Source: Candidatus Saccharimonadota bacterium
Lineage (GTDB): Bacteria > Patescibacteriota > Saccharimonadia > Saccharimonadales > Saccharimonadaceae
Length of the DNA stretch: 64,000 nt
NCBI GenBank assembly: GCA_017460225.1
Contig: JAFUBM010000019.1
Coordinates: 1-64,000, forward strand
Direction of reading: 5' to 3'
Positions 29,166 through 61,712 of this stretch are shown one piece after another. Both the position numbers and the translations under genes were made by a program. Positions within the stretch are counted from its first letter, which is position 1. Each line of letters opens with the position of its first letter. The notes under the pieces are model-generated. The model did no database searches and was not told where the DNA came from. It saw nothing but the letters and a program-made list of their open reading frames with translations.

Positions 29166-30194
29166 TTATTTGGCGGTGTTGCGCATATATTTGTGAACGG
29201 CAAGACGGGCGGAGAGCGTGCCAATCAGCATACCGGCAAGGACCATGGCGAGGACGATATAGATGATGCGATTGGAATCTAAGATGTCGGAGATGGTGGC
29301 GACGTTGATGCCGTAGCGCGAGAGACGCGGCTCAAGGAAGCGGAAGCCGCCATAAAACAGCCCAAAGGACAAGAGGCCGGAGACGACGCCGGAGAGCTGA
29401 GCTTCAACGAGGAACGGGCCGCGGATAAAGGCGCGGTCGGCGCCGACGAGCTTCATCATATAAATCTCTTCGCGGCGGGAGAAGATGGCCATGCGGATGG
29501 TGTTGAAAATGACGAGGACGGAGATGACAAGGAAGACGACGGAGAGAATCAGGCCGCCGGTCTTGGCAATACGGGCCCAGCGGGTAATCGTGGCGATTTC
29601 GTTGCGGTTGACGTCGTAGGTGGGCTCTTCGTTGGGGTCGAGATTTTTGACAAAGAGGATGTTGGAGGCAACGAGGGTCTTGATAGAATCGAGATTGTCC
29701 GGATCGTGGACCTTGAGGCGAAGCGTGCCCTGCATAGTGGAAATCATGGTGCTACGCATATCCATATCGGGGTCCTCTAGGGTCTCGATCAGGAGGGAGT
29801 TATCGGCGTTTTCTTTGAGGAAGTTTTCGTACTCTTCCTCGCTAGTGCGGACCTCGGCAGACTTGACGTTTTCTAGGGCGAGGGCGGCATCCTTAGCTTC
29901 GTTGAGGACTTCTAGACCGGTGCCGGGCTTAAAGAAGAGAGTGATGTCGATGCGGTCACGCATGGCGTCGGCGGTCTCGGAGAGGACGACGGTGGCGACG
30001 AGGGTGACGGAGAGGACGATGAGGGTGAGCGTCATAACGAGGGTGGCGGCGGTGGAGAGCCAGATGTTGCGGCCGAAGTTAATCGTGCCGTATTTGACAA
30101 CGCGGGAAGCGTTGCGGAGCTTTTTGGTCCGGCCGTTTTTGGTCAGGGTCTTGAGGTGTTTTTTGGTGATTTTCTTTTGGGCGGAGTCGGACAT
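29166..30194 (-). CDS. ftsX: Cell-division ABC transporter permease-like protein FtsX
   Basis: A 342-residue FtsX with a basic cytosolic N-terminus of ~45 residues, a first membrane helix (about 50-75), a ~120-residue outside domain that would bind the hydrolase, and three more helices (from about 215, 265 and 310). The family stretch IYMMKLVGADRAFIRGPF is present. FtsX does not transport; it passes the ATP state of FtsE to a wall hydrolase. The ATG shares one base with the ftsE stop (TAATG), so the genes are translationally coupled. Confidence 0.93.
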   Translation of the reverse strand: MSDSAQKKITKKHLKTLTKNGRTKKLRNASRVVKYGTINFGRNIWLSTAATLVMTLTLIVLSVTLVATVVLSETADAMRDRIDITLFFKPGTGLEVLNEAKDAALALENVKSAEVRTSEEEYENFLKENADNSLLIETLEDPDMDMRSTMISTMQGTLRLKVHDPDNLDSIKTLVASNILFVKNLDPNEEPTYDVNRNEIATITRWARIAKTGGLILSVVFLVISVLVIFNTIRMAIFSRREEIYMMKLVGADRAFIRGPFLVEAQLSGVVSGLLSFGLFYGGFRFLEPRLSRYGINVATISDILDSNRIIYIVLAMVLAGMLIGTLSARLAVHKYMRNTAK

Positions 30195-31015
30195 TAGATA
30201 ACCTTCTTCTTAGACTTAGGTTTCTTTGCGGATTTCTTGGCCTTTTCGAGGCTGGAGATATCGGCACGGGTCAGCTCAAAGCCGGGGGCTTTCAGGATGG
30301 ATGAATCGTAGAGAGTCTCGGACTCGCCGTCGAGGCGGTAGATACCGTTTTCCTTTTGGTCAGAGACGATGGCGCCATCTTTGAGGGTAATCACGCGCTT
30401 GCCGAGGTTGTTGACGATATTGCGGTTGTGGGTAGTGACGAGGATGGTGGTGCCAAAATCGTTGATTTTTTTCAGGAGGTCGATGATTTCGGAAGAGGTG
30501 GCTGGGTCGAGGTTGGCTGTGGGCTCATCCGCGATGAGAATCTTGGGCTGGCGAGCGACGGAACGGGCAATAGCGGTGCGCTGTTTTTGGCCACCGGAGA
30601 GCTGGGCGGGGAATTTGTTGGCTTGGTCTGAGAGACCGACGAGCTCAAGGACCTTGGGGACGGTGTGGCGAATCTCGCGACCGGACATCCCGGCGATCTC
30701 GAGCGCAAAGGCGACGTTTTCATAAACGGTGCGGCGAGGTAGGAGCTTGAAATCTTGGAAGACGACGCCGAGACGGCGGCGGTAATGCGGGATGTGGCGA
30801 CGCTTGACGTAGTCTAGATCGATACCACCGACGACAATTTTGCCAAAGGAAGGGTTTTCCTCCTTGGTAATCATCTTGATCAAGGTGGACTTGCCGGCGC
30901 CGGACTTGCCAACGAGGAAGACAAAATCATTCGGCTCGATATGAAGCGAGACGTTGTCGAGAGCAGGCTTTTTGTCGCCCGGATAGACCTTAGTGACGCT
31001 ATCTAACAGAATCAT
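30194..31015 (-). CDS. ftsE: Cell-division ATP-binding protein FtsE
   Basis: A 273-residue ABC ATPase: Walker [18 protein letters not shown]-loop [17 protein letters not shown], signature [13 protein letters not shown], Walker [13 protein letters not shown] and H-loop VTTHN. It is longer than typical FtsE (~225) because of a ~45-residue Lys-rich tail. Powers FtsX at the division site. On the minus strand TGC-TATTAT is 6 nt before the ATG. Upstream lies the palindromic region 31070-31349. Confidence 0.94.
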
Positions 31016-31069: not shown

Positions 31070-31290
31070 GTTTTCTCGGGATTTTGCTCGCTTGCAGGGG
31101 CTTATTCTTTTTCGCTAGGGAAAATCCAGTCTGATTTTTCTCGACGTCCAGTCGTGCGGCTCGCAAAGCCGTTCGGGTAGCACCGGCCACGTTTTGCTCG
31201 CCTTCGTGTCCGTCTCGAAAAATCCGTGGATTTTCTTTAGTCGCTTCAAAAGAATAAATCCCCTCGCTCGCAAAATCACCTAGAGAAAAC
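31070..31290. repeat. Giant imperfect palindrome, copy A
   Basis: About 220 bp between prfB and ftsE. Nested arms: GTTTTCTC (31070-31077) with GAGAAAAC (31283-31290); TTATTCTTTT (31102-31111) with AAAAGAATAA (31248-31257); AAAATCC with GGATTTT; centre GCAAAGCCG...CGGCCACGTTTTGC (31163-31197). The inner ~150 bp matches copy B inside dnaX with a near-identical 35-base centre, and arm differences compensate between copies. No coding potential or promoter is apparent inside. Confidence 0.8.
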
Positions 31291-31395: not shown

Positions 31396-32466
31396 CTATT
31401 GTTCTAGAAAGGCATCGATAAAGGGCATGAGGTTGCCGTCGAGGACGGAGGCGGCGTCGGAAGTTTCGAAGCCGGTGCGGGTGTCTTTGACAAGCTTGTA
31501 GGGCTGGAGGACGTAATTCCTAATTTGCTGACCCCATTTGGCGGATTCGCCGGCGCGAAGCTTGTCGATCGACTCGGCGCGTTGCTCGAGCTGCATTTGG
31601 ACGAGCTTGCCGCGCAGAATTTCCATGGCTTTTTCCTTGTTTTGGAGCTGGGAGCGCTCGTTTTGGATGGCGACGACAGTGCCGGTTGGGAGGTGGGTGA
31701 TGCGGACGGCGGAGTTGGTGGTGTTGACGGACTGGCCGCCGTGACCACCGGAATGATAGACGTCGATGCGGAGGTCTTTTTCGTCAATCTTGATGTTACT
31801 GTCGGACTTGAGGACGGGGAGGATTTCGACGAGGGAGAAAGAGGTCTGACGGAGGTTGTCGGCATTGAACGGCGAGAGGCGAACCAGGCGGTGGACGCCG
31901 TGCTCGGACTTGAGCGTGCCGTAGGCATTACGGCCGGAGATTTCGTAGACGGCGGTCTTAATCCCGGCTTCTTCTCCGGGGACGCGCTCGACGAGGGCGG
32001 CTTTGAAGCCGTTACGCTCGAAGAAGCGGAGATACATCCGCTCGAGCATCGATGCCCAATCCATGGCCTCCGTCCCGCCGACGCCGGCGGTAATCCGGAG
32101 AATGGCGTCGGAAGCGTCGAACTTGCCGGTAAAGCGGAGAGACTTTTTTAGCTCGGCGTAGGAGTTTTGCATGGCGGAGAGCTGGGCGGAAATCTCGTCT
32201 TTTAGATCTTCCCCGCCGAGGTCGATAAGACCCTCCAGGTCATCAATTTGGGTCCTTAAAAGCTGCCAGGGTTCGACTTCTTCGCGGAGGCGAGCAAAGG
32301 CTTCATTCTTGGCCTTGGCGTTGTCGGGGTTTTGCCAGAGCTCGGGGAGGGCGATTTCTGCCTCGAGAGACTGGAGCTCGGCTAACTTCTCCGGCAGCTG
32401 GAGTTTGGCCCAAGATTCGGCGAGGGCGACAGAGAGGGAGCGGAGCTGTTTTTTAAGATCTTCCAT
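31396..32466 (-). CDS. prfB: Peptide chain release factor 2
   Basis: A 356-residue RF2, which ends translation at UGA and UAA. The tripeptide that reads the stop codon is SPF (VRLSPFNADN), diagnostic for RF2 rather than RF1; the GGQ catalytic loop is SGGHGGQSVNTTNSAVRITH, and the family stretch GVGGTEAMDWASMLERMYLR is present. The frame is continuous: the programmed +1 frameshift found in many prfB genes is not seen. Its presence shows UGA is a stop codon here. It begins 2 bp after the murD stop, so they share an mRNA. Confidence 0.94.
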   Translation of the reverse strand: MEDLKKQLRSLSVALAESWAKLQLPEKLAELQSLEAEIALPELWQNPDNAKAKNEAFARLREEVEPWQLLRTQIDDLEGLIDLGGEDLKDEISAQLSAMQNSYAELKKSLRFTGKFDASDAILRITAGVGGTEAMDWASMLERMYLRFFERNGFKAALVERVPGEEAGIKTAVYEISGRNAYGTLKSEHGVHRLVRLSPFNADNLRQTSFSLVEILPVLKSDSNIKIDEKDLRIDVYHSGGHGGQSVNTTNSAVRITHLPTGTVVAIQNERSQLQNKEKAMEILRGKLVQMQLEQRAESIDKLRAGESAKWGQQIRNYVLQPYKLVKDTRTGFETSDAASVLDGNLMPFIDAFLEQ

Positions 32467-50667: not shown

Positions 50668-50942
50668 GTTTTCTTTCGAGTTGGTTTTATGAGGACATAG
50701 TTGAGGTCGGAGAGTCGAAGAAAGCCAAAAACATATTTTTTCGCTGGTCCTCCTCCGCCCTATAAAAATAGCAACATATCAGTCTAGCTCGCGCTCGATC
50801 ACCTAATCGCTCACTGCGTTCGCTCTACGGTTACTCGCACTCGCTAGTGAATGTTGTTATTTTTATCGGGGGAGATGCGGATTCGCTCAAAAATAGTTTT
50901 TGGCTTTCTGCTGTTCTATTGGACATTGCGTCGAAAGAAAAC
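50668..50942. repeat. Giant imperfect palindrome, copy D
   Basis: A 275-bp palindrome between the HD gene and secY. Perfect arms: GTTTTCTTTCGA (50668-50679) with TCGAAAGAAAAC (50931-50942); AGAAAGCCAAAAAC (50719-50732) with GTTTTTGGCTTTCT (50896-50909); a third arm pair 50762-50777 with 50851-50866 matches 15 of 16 with one G-T. The centre is CTAGC/GCTAG-like and GC-rich. The outer ends match copies A and E. Confidence 0.85.
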
Positions 50943-55938: not shown

Positions 55939-56187
55939 GGTTCCTACCTCTCTTTAGCTTTTGCATCCTCTGTGGATGCCAAGGTTTGCGAGCTGGTAAG
56001 AATTACTGCTTACAAAAATGGCACCACGAGGGTGCACAAGTCAATCGAGTCAACTTACGTGTTTTTCAAGTAAGCAAATCAATCAGCTTTCCTCATGGCG
56101 CCAATTCTAATTTGCTTAACTTAAAAACCAAATTGATAGGTACACGCAGTTTTGATTTCTCAAAACTTTGACTCAATAAACTTGTGC
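55939..56187 (-). promoter_or_regulatory. Structured ~250-nt 5' leader of FISUMP gene 2 (riboregulator candidate)
   Basis: Same order of elements as the leader at 9851. On the minus strand: hairpin GTTTTGA-gaaa-TCAAAAC; long-range helix TGGCGCCATGAGG / CCTCGTGGTGCCA (13 pairs including G-U); inner hairpin CTTAC/GTAAG; local hairpin GCACC-ctcgt-GGTGC (56021-56035) competing with the long helix; last hairpin GCATCC-acaga-GGATGC right before the ribosome site. Promoter: TTGCGA, 17-base spacer, TGC-TATTAT (56194-56222). Confidence 0.6.
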
Positions 56188-56254
56188 AGTTCTATAATAG
56201 CAAAGCTTTTGCGGTTTCGCAAGCCCTTTTTGCCATTTTAAAAAGTCTTTATGG

Positions 56255-56527: not shown

Positions 56528-57895
56528 TTAGTCATCGGCGTGGGTTTTGTCGAGAGACATAAAGCGCAGGAGCTCGGGGTGGAAGTAGAGCTCGATTTTG
56601 CCGACGGGGCCGTGGCGGTGCTTGGCGATAATCAGCTCGGTAATGTTAGTGGGGACAAAATCTGGCTTGTTCTGATTATAATAGTCGACACGGTGGAGGA
56701 ACATAACGATGTCGGCGTCTTGCTCGATAGAGCCGGACTCACGGAGGTCCGAGAGGACCGGACGCGGGTCGTCGCGGCCGGTGACGGAACGTGAAAGCTG
56801 GGCGAGCGCCACCACCGGGACTTCTAGCTCGCGAGCGAGCTGCTTAAGACCGCGGGAAATCTCCGTAACTTCTTGGACACGGTTGCCGGCATAGCGATCG
56901 GTCCCCTGGAGAAGCTGAAGGTAATCAACGACAATCATACCAATATCGTGGTCATGGGCGGCGCGGCGGGCCTTGTTGCGCAGCTCTAGAATAGTCATGG
57001 CGGAAGAATCGTCGAGATAAAGCGGGACGGAGTCCATCTCGCCGAGAGCATCGCCGATACGGCCAAAATCTTCGTCCGTGACGTTGCCGGTGCGGATTTT
57101 CCAGTTATCCACGCCGGAGACGTCAGAAATCATACGGTCTACGATCTCGGCGTTGGCCATCTCCATCGAGAAGAAAAGCACTCCGCGTTGGTTGATCGTG
57201 GCGGCATTGTAGGCTAGATTCTCGGCAAAGGTGGTTTTGCCCATGGCCGGGCGAGCACCAATAATGATTAGGTCTCCCTTTTGGAAGCCGGCGGTGATTT
57301 TGTCGAGGTCGCGGAAGCCGGTTTTAAGACCGCGGAGCGCACCTTTGTTGCGATGGAGCTCTTCCATACGGTCAAAAGCGTCGGCAAGGAGCGATTCGAG
57401 CGCGACGTATTCGGTTTTGGTGGTTTTGTCTGAGACTTCAAAGAGGGCTTTTTCTGCATTACCTAAGAGGTCGGGGATTTCTGCCCCCTCTTCGTAGGCG
57501 GATTCGGCGATATTGGTTCCGGCTTGGATGAGCCGGCGACGGACGGCGCACTTAGTTACAAGGTCTGCATAAGCCTGAGCGTGAGAAGCGGTGGGGACAA
57601 AATTGGTGAGCTCTGTAAGATAGGCTGCCCCGCCGACGGATTTGAGCGCTTTGGCGGCGCGGAGCTCGGCCGTGACGGTCAAAAGGTCAATCGGGCGGTG
57701 GTGTTGATAAAGCGAGACAAAGGCGGCAAAAATCTTCTCATGGCGCTGGTCGTAAAAATCTTTGGCTTTGACAATTTCTAGGACATCCGGAAAAGCGGCG
57801 TCGGAGAGCAGCAGCGCTCCGAGCAAGGACTTCTCCGCGACTAGATCTTGGGGCGGGACGCGGCCAGAACTGGCGTTAGAAGGGGACTCCTCCAT
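56528..57895 (-). CDS. dnaB: Replicative DNA helicase
   Basis: A 455-residue DnaB hexameric helicase. N-terminal primase-binding domain: PPQDLVAEKSLLGALLLSDA; RecA-type core: LIIIGARPAMGKTTFAENLA (Walker A), MIVVDYLQLL (Walker B), VVALAQLSRSVTGR, RESGSIEQDADIVMFLHR and IIAKHRHGP (arginine finger region). Its first 20 bases overlap the end of dnaX, so helicase and clamp-loader genes are translated together. No intein. Confidence 0.97.
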   Translation of the reverse strand: MEESPSNASSGRVPPQDLVAEKSLLGALLLSDAAFPDVLEIVKAKDFYDQRHEKIFAAFVSLYQHHRPIDLLTVTAELRAAKALKSVGGAAYLTELTNFVPTASHAQAYADLVTKCAVRRRLIQAGTNIAESAYEEGAEIPDLLGNAEKALFEVSDKTTKTEYVALESLLADAFDRMEELHRNKGALRGLKTGFRDLDKITAGFQKGDLIIIGARPAMGKTTFAENLAYNAATINQRGVLFFSMEMANAEIVDRMISDVSGVDNWKIRTGNVTDEDFGRIGDALGEMDSVPLYLDDSSAMTILELRNKARRAAHDHDIGMIVVDYLQLLQGTDRYAGNRVQEVTEISRGLKQLARELEVPVVALAQLSRSVTGRDDPRPVLSDLRESGSIEQDADIVMFLHRVDYYNQNKPDFVPTNITELIIAKHRHGPVGKIELYFHPELLRFMSLDKTHADD

Positions 57896-59303
57896 CTTGG
57901 TTAGTGTTTACCTCCGTTACATTACCCATTATATCAGAAATTGCCTGGATTTCTGGCGATTTTTCTACGGGAGCGTCAGCGGGGCTGTGGATAACGAAGG
58001 GTTTGGCGAAATAAGCTCGCAATAGCTCTTGGTTGTTCTCGCGAGACAGAATCAGCTTGGTGACGTTTTGCTTTGGGTAAATATGGATAGCGTCGGGGGA
58101 TTCTTGGATGGTGCATTTGGCGAGCTGCTGTTGTAATGCAGAGGTAAGCGTGGTTCCGGCTTTGGGGCTTGCGGTCGGCAGATTCTTCCTCGCTAGGGAA
58201 AATTCAGTCGGATTTTCAGCGTCGTTCAGGCGGTCTGCGGGCAAAGCCGTTCGGGTAGCACCGGCCACGTTTTGCCCTTGACCGTTCTCTCCGCTAAAAA
58301 TCCGTGAATTTTCTTTAGTCGCTTCGGAAGAACTGGCCGACCCGCGCCATAAGCCGGAACTGTTTTCTGACTTAAGGTCTGATAGGAGCGCGACGAGGAG
58401 TTTGGCTTCTGGGAAGGGGGCGGAGACGGAGGGAAGCTTTTCTAGGAGCGGGAGGAGCGCGGGCGAGGGAGCGGAGATGATTTTGGCAATCAAAGCTTCC
58501 GCGAGAGACTCGGGCTTTAGACCCTCGGAGAGAAGAGATTTGAGAGTGGAAGTTAGAGCCGTAGCGTTGCCGGAGGCGTAGGCGGAGAGTAAGTCGGAGA
58601 CTGTGGAGTCGAGCGGAAGACCGAGGAGATTAGCGATGGTAGACTCGGAGAGCTCGGATTTGCCATCGGAGACGGTGGAGATTTGGTCGAGGAGAGAGAG
58701 TGTGTCGCGGAAAGAACCCCCGCCGCGGGAGATGATAACCCGGAGCGCGGAATCAGAGATTTTAATTTTTTCTGCATCGCAGATGGAGCGGAGGTGAGAG
58801 AACATCGTCTCGGCGCTAGCGAGACGGAAGCGGAAGACTTGGGAGCGGGAAGTGATAGTGACCGGGACTTTTTCAAGATCTGTCGTGGCGAGAATAAAGA
58901 CTACGTGCGCTGGCGGCTCTTCGAGCGTCTTAAGCAGGGCGTTGAACGCGGGCTTGGAAAGCATATGGACTTCGTCGATGATGTAAACCTTGTACTTCCC
59001 TTCTGAGGGAGCAATCAGCGCTTTTTCTCGGAGGTCGCGAATGTTGTCCACTCCGGTATTGCTGGCCGCGTCAATCTCGATAATGTCGAGATAAGAATCC
59101 TCCAGCTCGTAGGGGAAACCGTTGAGCTCGTGCGCAAGAATCCGGGCAACGGAGGTCTTACCGCAACCGCGCGGGCCGGTAAAGAGATAAGAGTGCGACA
59201 GCTTGCCGGACTTGAGAGCGGCAGAAAGCGGCTCGGTAACCTGGGGTTGACCGATAACTTCCGCGAGGGAGCGGGGGCGATATTTGCGATAGAGAGCGAG
59301 CAT
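57876..59303 (-). CDS. dnaX: DNA polymerase III gamma/tau subunit with palindrome-encoded insert
   Basis: A 475-residue clamp-loader ATPase. Walker A LFTGPRGCGKTSVARILA, Walker B VYIIDEVHMLSKPAFNALLK, sensor 1 FILATTDLEKVPVTITSRSQ. The four-Cys zinc module normally found after Walker A is absent; the sequence runs AHELNGFPYELEDSYLDIIE, then IDAASNTGVDNIR. Residues about 315-384 are a low-complexity stretch (GLWRGSASSSEATKENSR ... NPTEFSLARKNLPTASPK) encoded exactly by the palindromic element 58153-58360. It falls in the linker before the C-terminal tau-type domain. The gene overlaps the upstream unknown gene by 1 base. Confidence 0.94.
   Translation of the reverse strand: MLALYRKYRPRSLAEVIGQPQVTEPLSAALKSGKLSHSYLFTGPRGCGKTSVARILAHELNGFPYELEDSYLDIIEIDAASNTGVDNIRDLREKALIAPSEGKYKVYIIDEVHMLSKPAFNALLKTLEEPPAHVVFILATTDLEKVPVTITSRSQVFRFRLASAETMFSHLRSICDAEKIKISDSALRVIISRGGGSFRDTLSLLDQISTVSDGKSELSESTIANLLGLPLDSTVSDLLSAYASGNATALTSTLKSLLSEGLKPESLAEALIAKIISAPSPALLPLLEKLPSVSAPFPEAKLLVALLSDLKSENSSGLWRGSASSSEATKENSRIFSGENGQGQNVAGATRTALPADRLNDAENPTEFSLARKNLPTASPKAGTTLTSALQQQLAKCTIQESPDAIHIYPKQNVTKLILSRENNQELLRAYFAKPFVIHSPADAPVEKSPEIQAISDIMGNVTEVNTNQDGGVPF
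58153..58360. repeat. Giant imperfect palindrome, copy B, inside dnaX
   Basis: 208 bp lying wholly in the dnaX frame. Arms: GTTCCGGCTT (58153-58162) with AAGCCGGAAC (58351-58360); GGTCGGC and TTCTTCC (58173-58179, 58183-58189) with GGAAGAA and GCCGACC (58326-58332, 58336-58342); AAAATTC with GAATTTT; GGATTTT with AAAATCC; centre 58241-58275 is the same 35 bases as copy A. It adds about 70 codons without a stop. Confidence 0.88.
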
Positions 59304-61561: not shown

Positions 61562-61712
61562 GTTTAATTTTTGGGGCTTGCGGTCGGAAGTTCCTTTTGG
61601 GGGCCGGCCTCCTTCGCGCCCGTCGTTACGGGGCTCCGGGGCCTTAATCCTCGGTCGTAACCTCCGGACACCCCCAAAACGAACCTTCCTCCCCGCCGCC
61701 TAAAAATTAAAC
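61562..61712. repeat. Giant imperfect palindrome, copy E
   Basis: 151 bp between convergent rlmH and dus. GTTTAATTTTT (61562-61572) with AAAAATTAAAC (61702-61712); TTTTGGGGG (61595-61603) with CCCCCAAAA (61671-61679); GTTACG with CGTAAC near the centre. The right arm contains the stop codon of the dus gene. The left arm shares GGGGCTTGCGGTCGG with copy B. Confidence 0.82.

Follow-up and report, generated by a model that had tools for sequence, protein, structure and literature searches.

The window, that is, the whole stretch of 64,000 nucleotides that was analyzed, belongs to a genome of 694,526 bases (G000) and contains two copies, A and B, of a palindromic element, as well as a member of a second palindrome family, termed X. 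The corresponding features are as follows.

30194 to 31015, minus strand: ftsE, one neighbor of copy A
31072 to 31104, minus strand: outer arm of copy A, 3' side in element orientation, used in the flank-pairing comparison
31105 to 31257, minus strand: core of copy A, 153 nt, intergenic between prfB and ftsE, covariance-model score of 189.6 bits
31258 to 31290, minus strand: outer arm of copy A, 5' side in element orientation, base-paired with the flank across the core
31396 to 32466, minus strand: prfB, the other neighbor of copy A
57876 to 59303, minus strand: dnaX (DNA polymerase III gamma/tau), host of copy B, with the insert downstream of the ATPase and lid domains
58150 to 58182, minus strand: outer arm of copy B, 3' side; positions 58161 to 58187 match a family X outer arm
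58183 to 58335, minus strand: core of copy B, in-frame insert at about residues 322 to 373 of the 475 residues of DnaX
58336 to 58369, minus strand: outer arm of copy B, 5' side, used in the flank-pairing comparison
61562 to 61712, no strand assigned: family X palindrome with the core CCCGTCGTTACGGG, intergenic, with relatives in frame elsewhere in the same genome

A first-pass annotation of this DNA had reported matched base changes between copies A and B around an unchanged center. Direct reading of the sequence confirmed the quoted arm ends, namely, TTCTTTT...AAAAGAA and AAAATCC...GGATTTT in copy A and TTCTTCC...GGAAGAA and AAAATTC...GAATTTT in copy B (window positions of about 58187 to 58332), and the center, GCAAAGCCGTTCGGGTAGCACCGGCCACGTTTTGC, is exactly 35 nt long and identical in both copies. 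The quoted pairs are real; however, they were a selection, and the pair-by-pair tally of A versus B in the register of the family comprises three two-sided changes that keep the pair and seven pairs that are changed on one side or broken, because the middle of copy B re-registers into a hairpin of its own that is even stronger. The fold of copy A had a z value of -5.2 relative to dinucleotide shuffles, none of which (0 of 200) was equally stable, and the element's frame runs open through this intergenic copy. The main point had escaped the annotation, namely, that the two copies are part of a dispersed family and that copy B lies within the coding frame of dnaX.

With copy A as the query, 10 copies, A and B included, were retrieved from G000, of which 4 are coding and 6 are intergenic. 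These 10 sequences were used to build a covariance model, R1, with which we searched the genus and an order-wide sample. Within the genus, 9 of the 174 genomes searched had copies of the family, and R1 had no match in the 142 other genera of the 143-genus sample. The relatives identified by name are metagenome assemblies of Candidatus Saccharibacteria, obtained from the ileum and jejunum of sheep and goats. Since metagenome assembly is the source of the relatives' genomes, and probably also of the window, an assembly artifact or chance inverted repeats may be considered as explanations, but related copies occur in nine independent genomes, named RGIG assemblies among them, and this recurrence refutes such an origin beyond reasonable doubt. 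A hairpin was present in every well-scored copy. The element is short (~150 nt) and multicopy, has a frame of ~50 amino acids as its only coding capacity and carries no transposase gene, features that it shares with miniature inverted-repeat transposable elements (MITEs).

In total, 12 in-frame copies were found in six genomes, at seven sites in six genes: der, obg, valS (two sites), dnaX, tatD, and a cysteine-desulfurase-like gene. They are located in der, obg, valS, and dnaX (copy B) of G000, in dnaX of G031, in der of G016, in valS (twice), dnaX, and der of G088, in tatD of G022, and in a class V aminotransferase (cysteine-desulfurase-like) gene of G076; the dnaX and der copies of G088 and the tatD copy of G022 form a longer subfamily of the insert. 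In all 12 copies strand and frame are identical and the frame is open, and they share a recognizable peptide of ~50 amino acids, [SL]FEATKENxRIF...RLxxEKNxTEFSxAKK. In the Protein Data Bank, the profile of this peptide matched only designed armadillo repeats, over short stretches and weakly; these hits were judged compositional and discarded. Mapping of Pfam domains placed the inserts between domains in Der, Obg, and ValS (site 499), as was also seen for family X in PyrG and PepN. In G000, the Der copy lies between the two GTPase domains, that of Obg between the GTPase and C-terminal domains, and that of ValS between the catalytic and anticodon domains. Empty Der sites were found in the relatives G002, G128, and G022, and relatives with empty sites, which have short linkers instead of the insert, were also found for ValS-499, Obg, and ValS-231.

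The insert is thus apparently translated as a segment of ~50 residues, without removal. Long stable hairpins within essential genes might also be spliced out or bypassed by the ribosome, as are the byp elements of yeast mitochondria; this reading is very improbable, since the frame is open and the peptide recognizable in all 12 coding copies, and likewise in family X, and since nothing requires a removal. The byp elements of Magnusiomyces mitochondria resemble the present element in being palindromic inserts in coding genes, but differ from it in that they are not translated (PMC6649704), whereas the frame in Saccharibacteria is always open. When the synonymous codons of each coding copy with 60-nt flanks were permuted, the fold weakened in 12 of 12 cases, with z values of -3.6 to -9.2. 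Codons drawn instead from genome usage gave z values from -0.4 to -5.7, with those of tatD and of der in G016 being near 0 and -1.4, respectively. Taken together, these values indicate for most copies, but not clearly for the tatD copy and the der copy of G016, that the hairpin goes beyond what the peptide entails.

We then aligned 15 cores. In a structure of 47 pairs, 94.8% of the cells were standard pairs, as compared to 31 to 48% in slid controls, and two-sided changes were present at 15 pairs, as compared to 7.9 in shuffles. Parsimony on a neighbor-joining tree, with the outermost helix left out, yielded 25 two-sided events from one Watson-Crick pair to another and 7 two-sided events ending unpaired; these counts are approximate, as segments are exchanged between the repeats from which the tree was built. 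Losses of a Watson-Crick pair by a change on one side amounted to 13 when those of the transversion type were counted, namely, 4 to G-U, 4 to A-C, and 5 to other mismatches. The annotation had stated that one-sided changes as frequent as two-sided ones in further copies would speak against it; we found 25 two-sided events and 8 one-sided transitions. The hairpin is really maintained across copies. As to the cause, the annotation had left the choice between selection for the hairpin and a copying mechanism, and the evidence leans toward copying, or another process at the DNA level, given that G-U is no commoner than A-C. G-U and A-C are the RNA readings of the same transition; therefore, an excess of G-U is expected if pairing is selected in RNA and none is expected if the arms are matched as DNA. 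Among mismatched cells of the cores, G-U (4) and A-C (5) were equally rare, and mismatches in the outer arms comprised 6 G-U, 5 A-C, and 9 transversions. This equal rarity favors a DNA-level process, such as arm copying, nesting, or conversion, over selection on RNA structure, although the mismatch counts are small and the copies not fully independent phylogenetically.

This result bears on the possibility that the element is a functional structured RNA, for instance, an mRNA pause or stability element between domains, in which case the matched changes would be classical compensatory mutations. We regard this as unlikely. The strong covariation of the cores, a hairpin that exceeds the demand of the peptide under synonymous permutation and the location of several inserts at domain linkers are what such an RNA would lead one to expect, but an excess of G-U is absent from core and outer arms, the copies have little outer-arm sequence in common, which fits one RNA motif poorly, and the intergenic copies lack a common gene context. 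Furthermore, the element is lacking from most genomes of the genus, the Der and ValS linkers are occupied by different families, and an Rfam scan of the window returned only a tRNA and no match for the element.

Most copies extend their arms past the core by roughly 10 to 35 bp, and several have a one-base bulge just outside the core. These outer arms are specific for the site: the own flanks of a copy paired best or second best of 28 in 24 of 28 copies, the exceptions being mostly weak model matches, and the own flanks of copy A gave -40.2 kcal/mol, as compared to a mean of -16.4 kcal/mol for swapped flanks. Cores that are ~98 to 99% identical (copy A, L039, L031, and der) have outer arms that are nearly unrelated, yet still paired. 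Stepwise compensation in place fails to account for this, unless conversion has homogenized the cores. Types of center and of arm are variously combined among L031, L036, L039, L042, and L046, which points to conversion between copies. Such conversion could yield identical cores without recent transposition; copies that agree in the core but differ in the arms were therefore not accepted as proof of a recent transposition.

Three possible origins of the outer arms emerge from the sequences. (i) In at least one case the explanation is nesting, since 27 nt of the 3' outer arm of copy B (58161 to 58187) are 89% identical to an outer arm of family X. (ii) The element may have inserted into preexisting palindromes, i.e., hairpin loops or older elements, so that the outer arms came first and arm copying is unneeded. 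This is a tentative alternative, consistent with the core of copy B inside family X outer arms, with flanks that make a further inverted match of 25/25 in G076 and with flanks that pair at 12 of 13 positions around the tatD site of G088. On the other hand, the empty Der linkers of relatives have no hairpin, and perfect palindromes of 15 to 20 bp are improbable in native coding linkers. At the tatD site of G088, both outer arms and the initial 12 nt of the element are still present; the site looks like a deletion scar, which is the better reading of 12 nt identical to the element end, the alternative being an original empty site. As it may be a scar, we did not accept this site as proof of loop targeting. 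(iii) The palindrome, on or after insertion, might convert the host sequence on its flanks into inverted arms, with part of the host gene itself being drawn into the hairpin and the arms coevolving by DNA copying, a scenario that we put forward with considerable reserve.

Family X, with its REP-like, GC-rich core, occurs in frame in G000 in the genes for CTP synthase (pyrG), aminopeptidase N (pepN), an exonuclease III-like protein, and an RNA methyltransferase and at a second site of valS; its coding copies have an open frame and a recognizable peptide. In many genomes of the genus the Der linker contains other in-frame hairpins, with z values of about -4 to -10 relative to simple shuffles, and a P-type ATPase of G072 contains a member of one of these families as well. 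The linker between the GTPase domains of Der (L080 to L099) appears as an insertion hot spot, with several in-frame palindrome families across the genus. G128 has long in-frame inserts in valS, obg, and dnaX (L108, L115, and L128); those in obg and dnaX are related and have the peptide AEPRNDG.EDAGDASEGLRKAA in common. Two further intergenic palindromes were noted in the window. That at 50719 to 50909 adjoins a secY-like gene and is nested (outer arms AGAAAGCCAAAAACATATTTT, inner arms CCCTATAAAAATAGCAACAT); it is followed by a terminator-like GGGCGGG hairpin, the flank of which recurs beside copy A. That at 56033 to 56188 consists of two arm pairs, of 21 and 19 nt, stacked on each other, and is flanked by a large secreted-protein-like gene on one side and by the gene that follows dnaX on the other. 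An identity-based search for inverted repeats served better for the palindromes of the window than a sliding-fold scan with loose rules, which separated only the top few elements from shuffled DNA.

As to the means of movement, no parent transposon was found in searches for Y1_Tnp and RVT_1. Y1_Tnp (PF01797) was absent from G000, which is 98% complete, and present in control genomes. A reverse transcriptase (RVT_1) gene is located on contig C4 of G000 (L165:724-1875), and its motifs presumably resemble those of diversity-generating retroelements; it was rejected as the mover, as nothing ties it to the element. Inspection by eye revealed no evident target-site duplication beyond the arms. In six weak R1 matches (L028, L029, L030, L034, L035, and L044) the center, of the GTGGCCGGTG..CCCGAACGG type, is seemingly kept and the arms are quite different, which suggests that the conserved center is the module recognized by whatever moves the element.

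We consider it probable that the family is a nonautonomous palindromic mobile element of one Saccharibacteria genus, located in frame in the linkers of housekeeping genes, translated, and with arms matched at the DNA level. A palindrome of ~150 nt plus site-specific outer arms would have multiplied within this Candidatus Saccharibacteria genus and landed repeatedly, in frame, in variable linkers of housekeeping genes, where selection would keep the frame. The hairpin may form during replication, with one arm being copied from the other by quasipalindrome template switching, an established route to homogenized inverted-repeat arms (PMC8604942, PMC7202029), and ectopic conversion may transfer segments between copies, which also nest within one another. 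The matched changes most likely arise at the DNA level, and a direct RNA function would be unnecessary.

The element can be compared with several known systems. Its closest known counterparts are the Rickettsia palindromic elements (RPEs), reported by Ogata in 2000 and 2002. According to later articles, RPEs are ~100 to 150 nt long, form several families, are found in intergenic regions as well as in frame in unrelated genes, and encode a family-specific peptide when in genes (PMC10969869, PMC4316617). The Saccharibacteria element agrees with these descriptions in its anatomy and resembles an RPE in its mode of action: it is in frame in unrelated genes, has a conserved peptide, and has both coding and intergenic copies. 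It differs in its occurrence in an unrelated phylum and in its arms, which stay matched via two-sided changes and carry site-specific outer arms, whereas RPEs reportedly lose arm identity over time (PMC6649704). In mitochondria of Nematomorpha, translated genes contain coding palindromes, i.e., long inverted repeats with arms kept matched, for which template switching was proposed; these share with our element the location in translated genes and the matched arms, but there the arms consist of conserved sequence native to the protein, and no mobile core is shared (PMC6649704), whereas the Saccharibacteria element is a multicopy core inserted in linkers. REP/BIME sequences and bacterial MITEs are likewise short multicopy palindromes (PMC3733652, PMC10969869), and the family X core is REP-like; however, REPs are extragenic, and G000 lacks a RAYT-type Y1 transposase.

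A search of the available literature retrieved no article on palindromic elements, inverted repeats or hairpins in Saccharibacteria, nor on MITEs in CPR bacteria. Protein-coding palindromes, previously described as a peculiarity of Rickettsia, are now seen as several families in essential genes of the tiny genomes of Saccharibacteria. Their matched arms make it testable whether covariation in repeats reflects RNA selection or DNA-level arm copying, and two cautions follow: covariation tests on repeats may mimic a structured RNA, and mobile DNA can underlie the indel-rich linkers of such proteins. The data suggest that new protein segments arise time and again from mobile hairpins.
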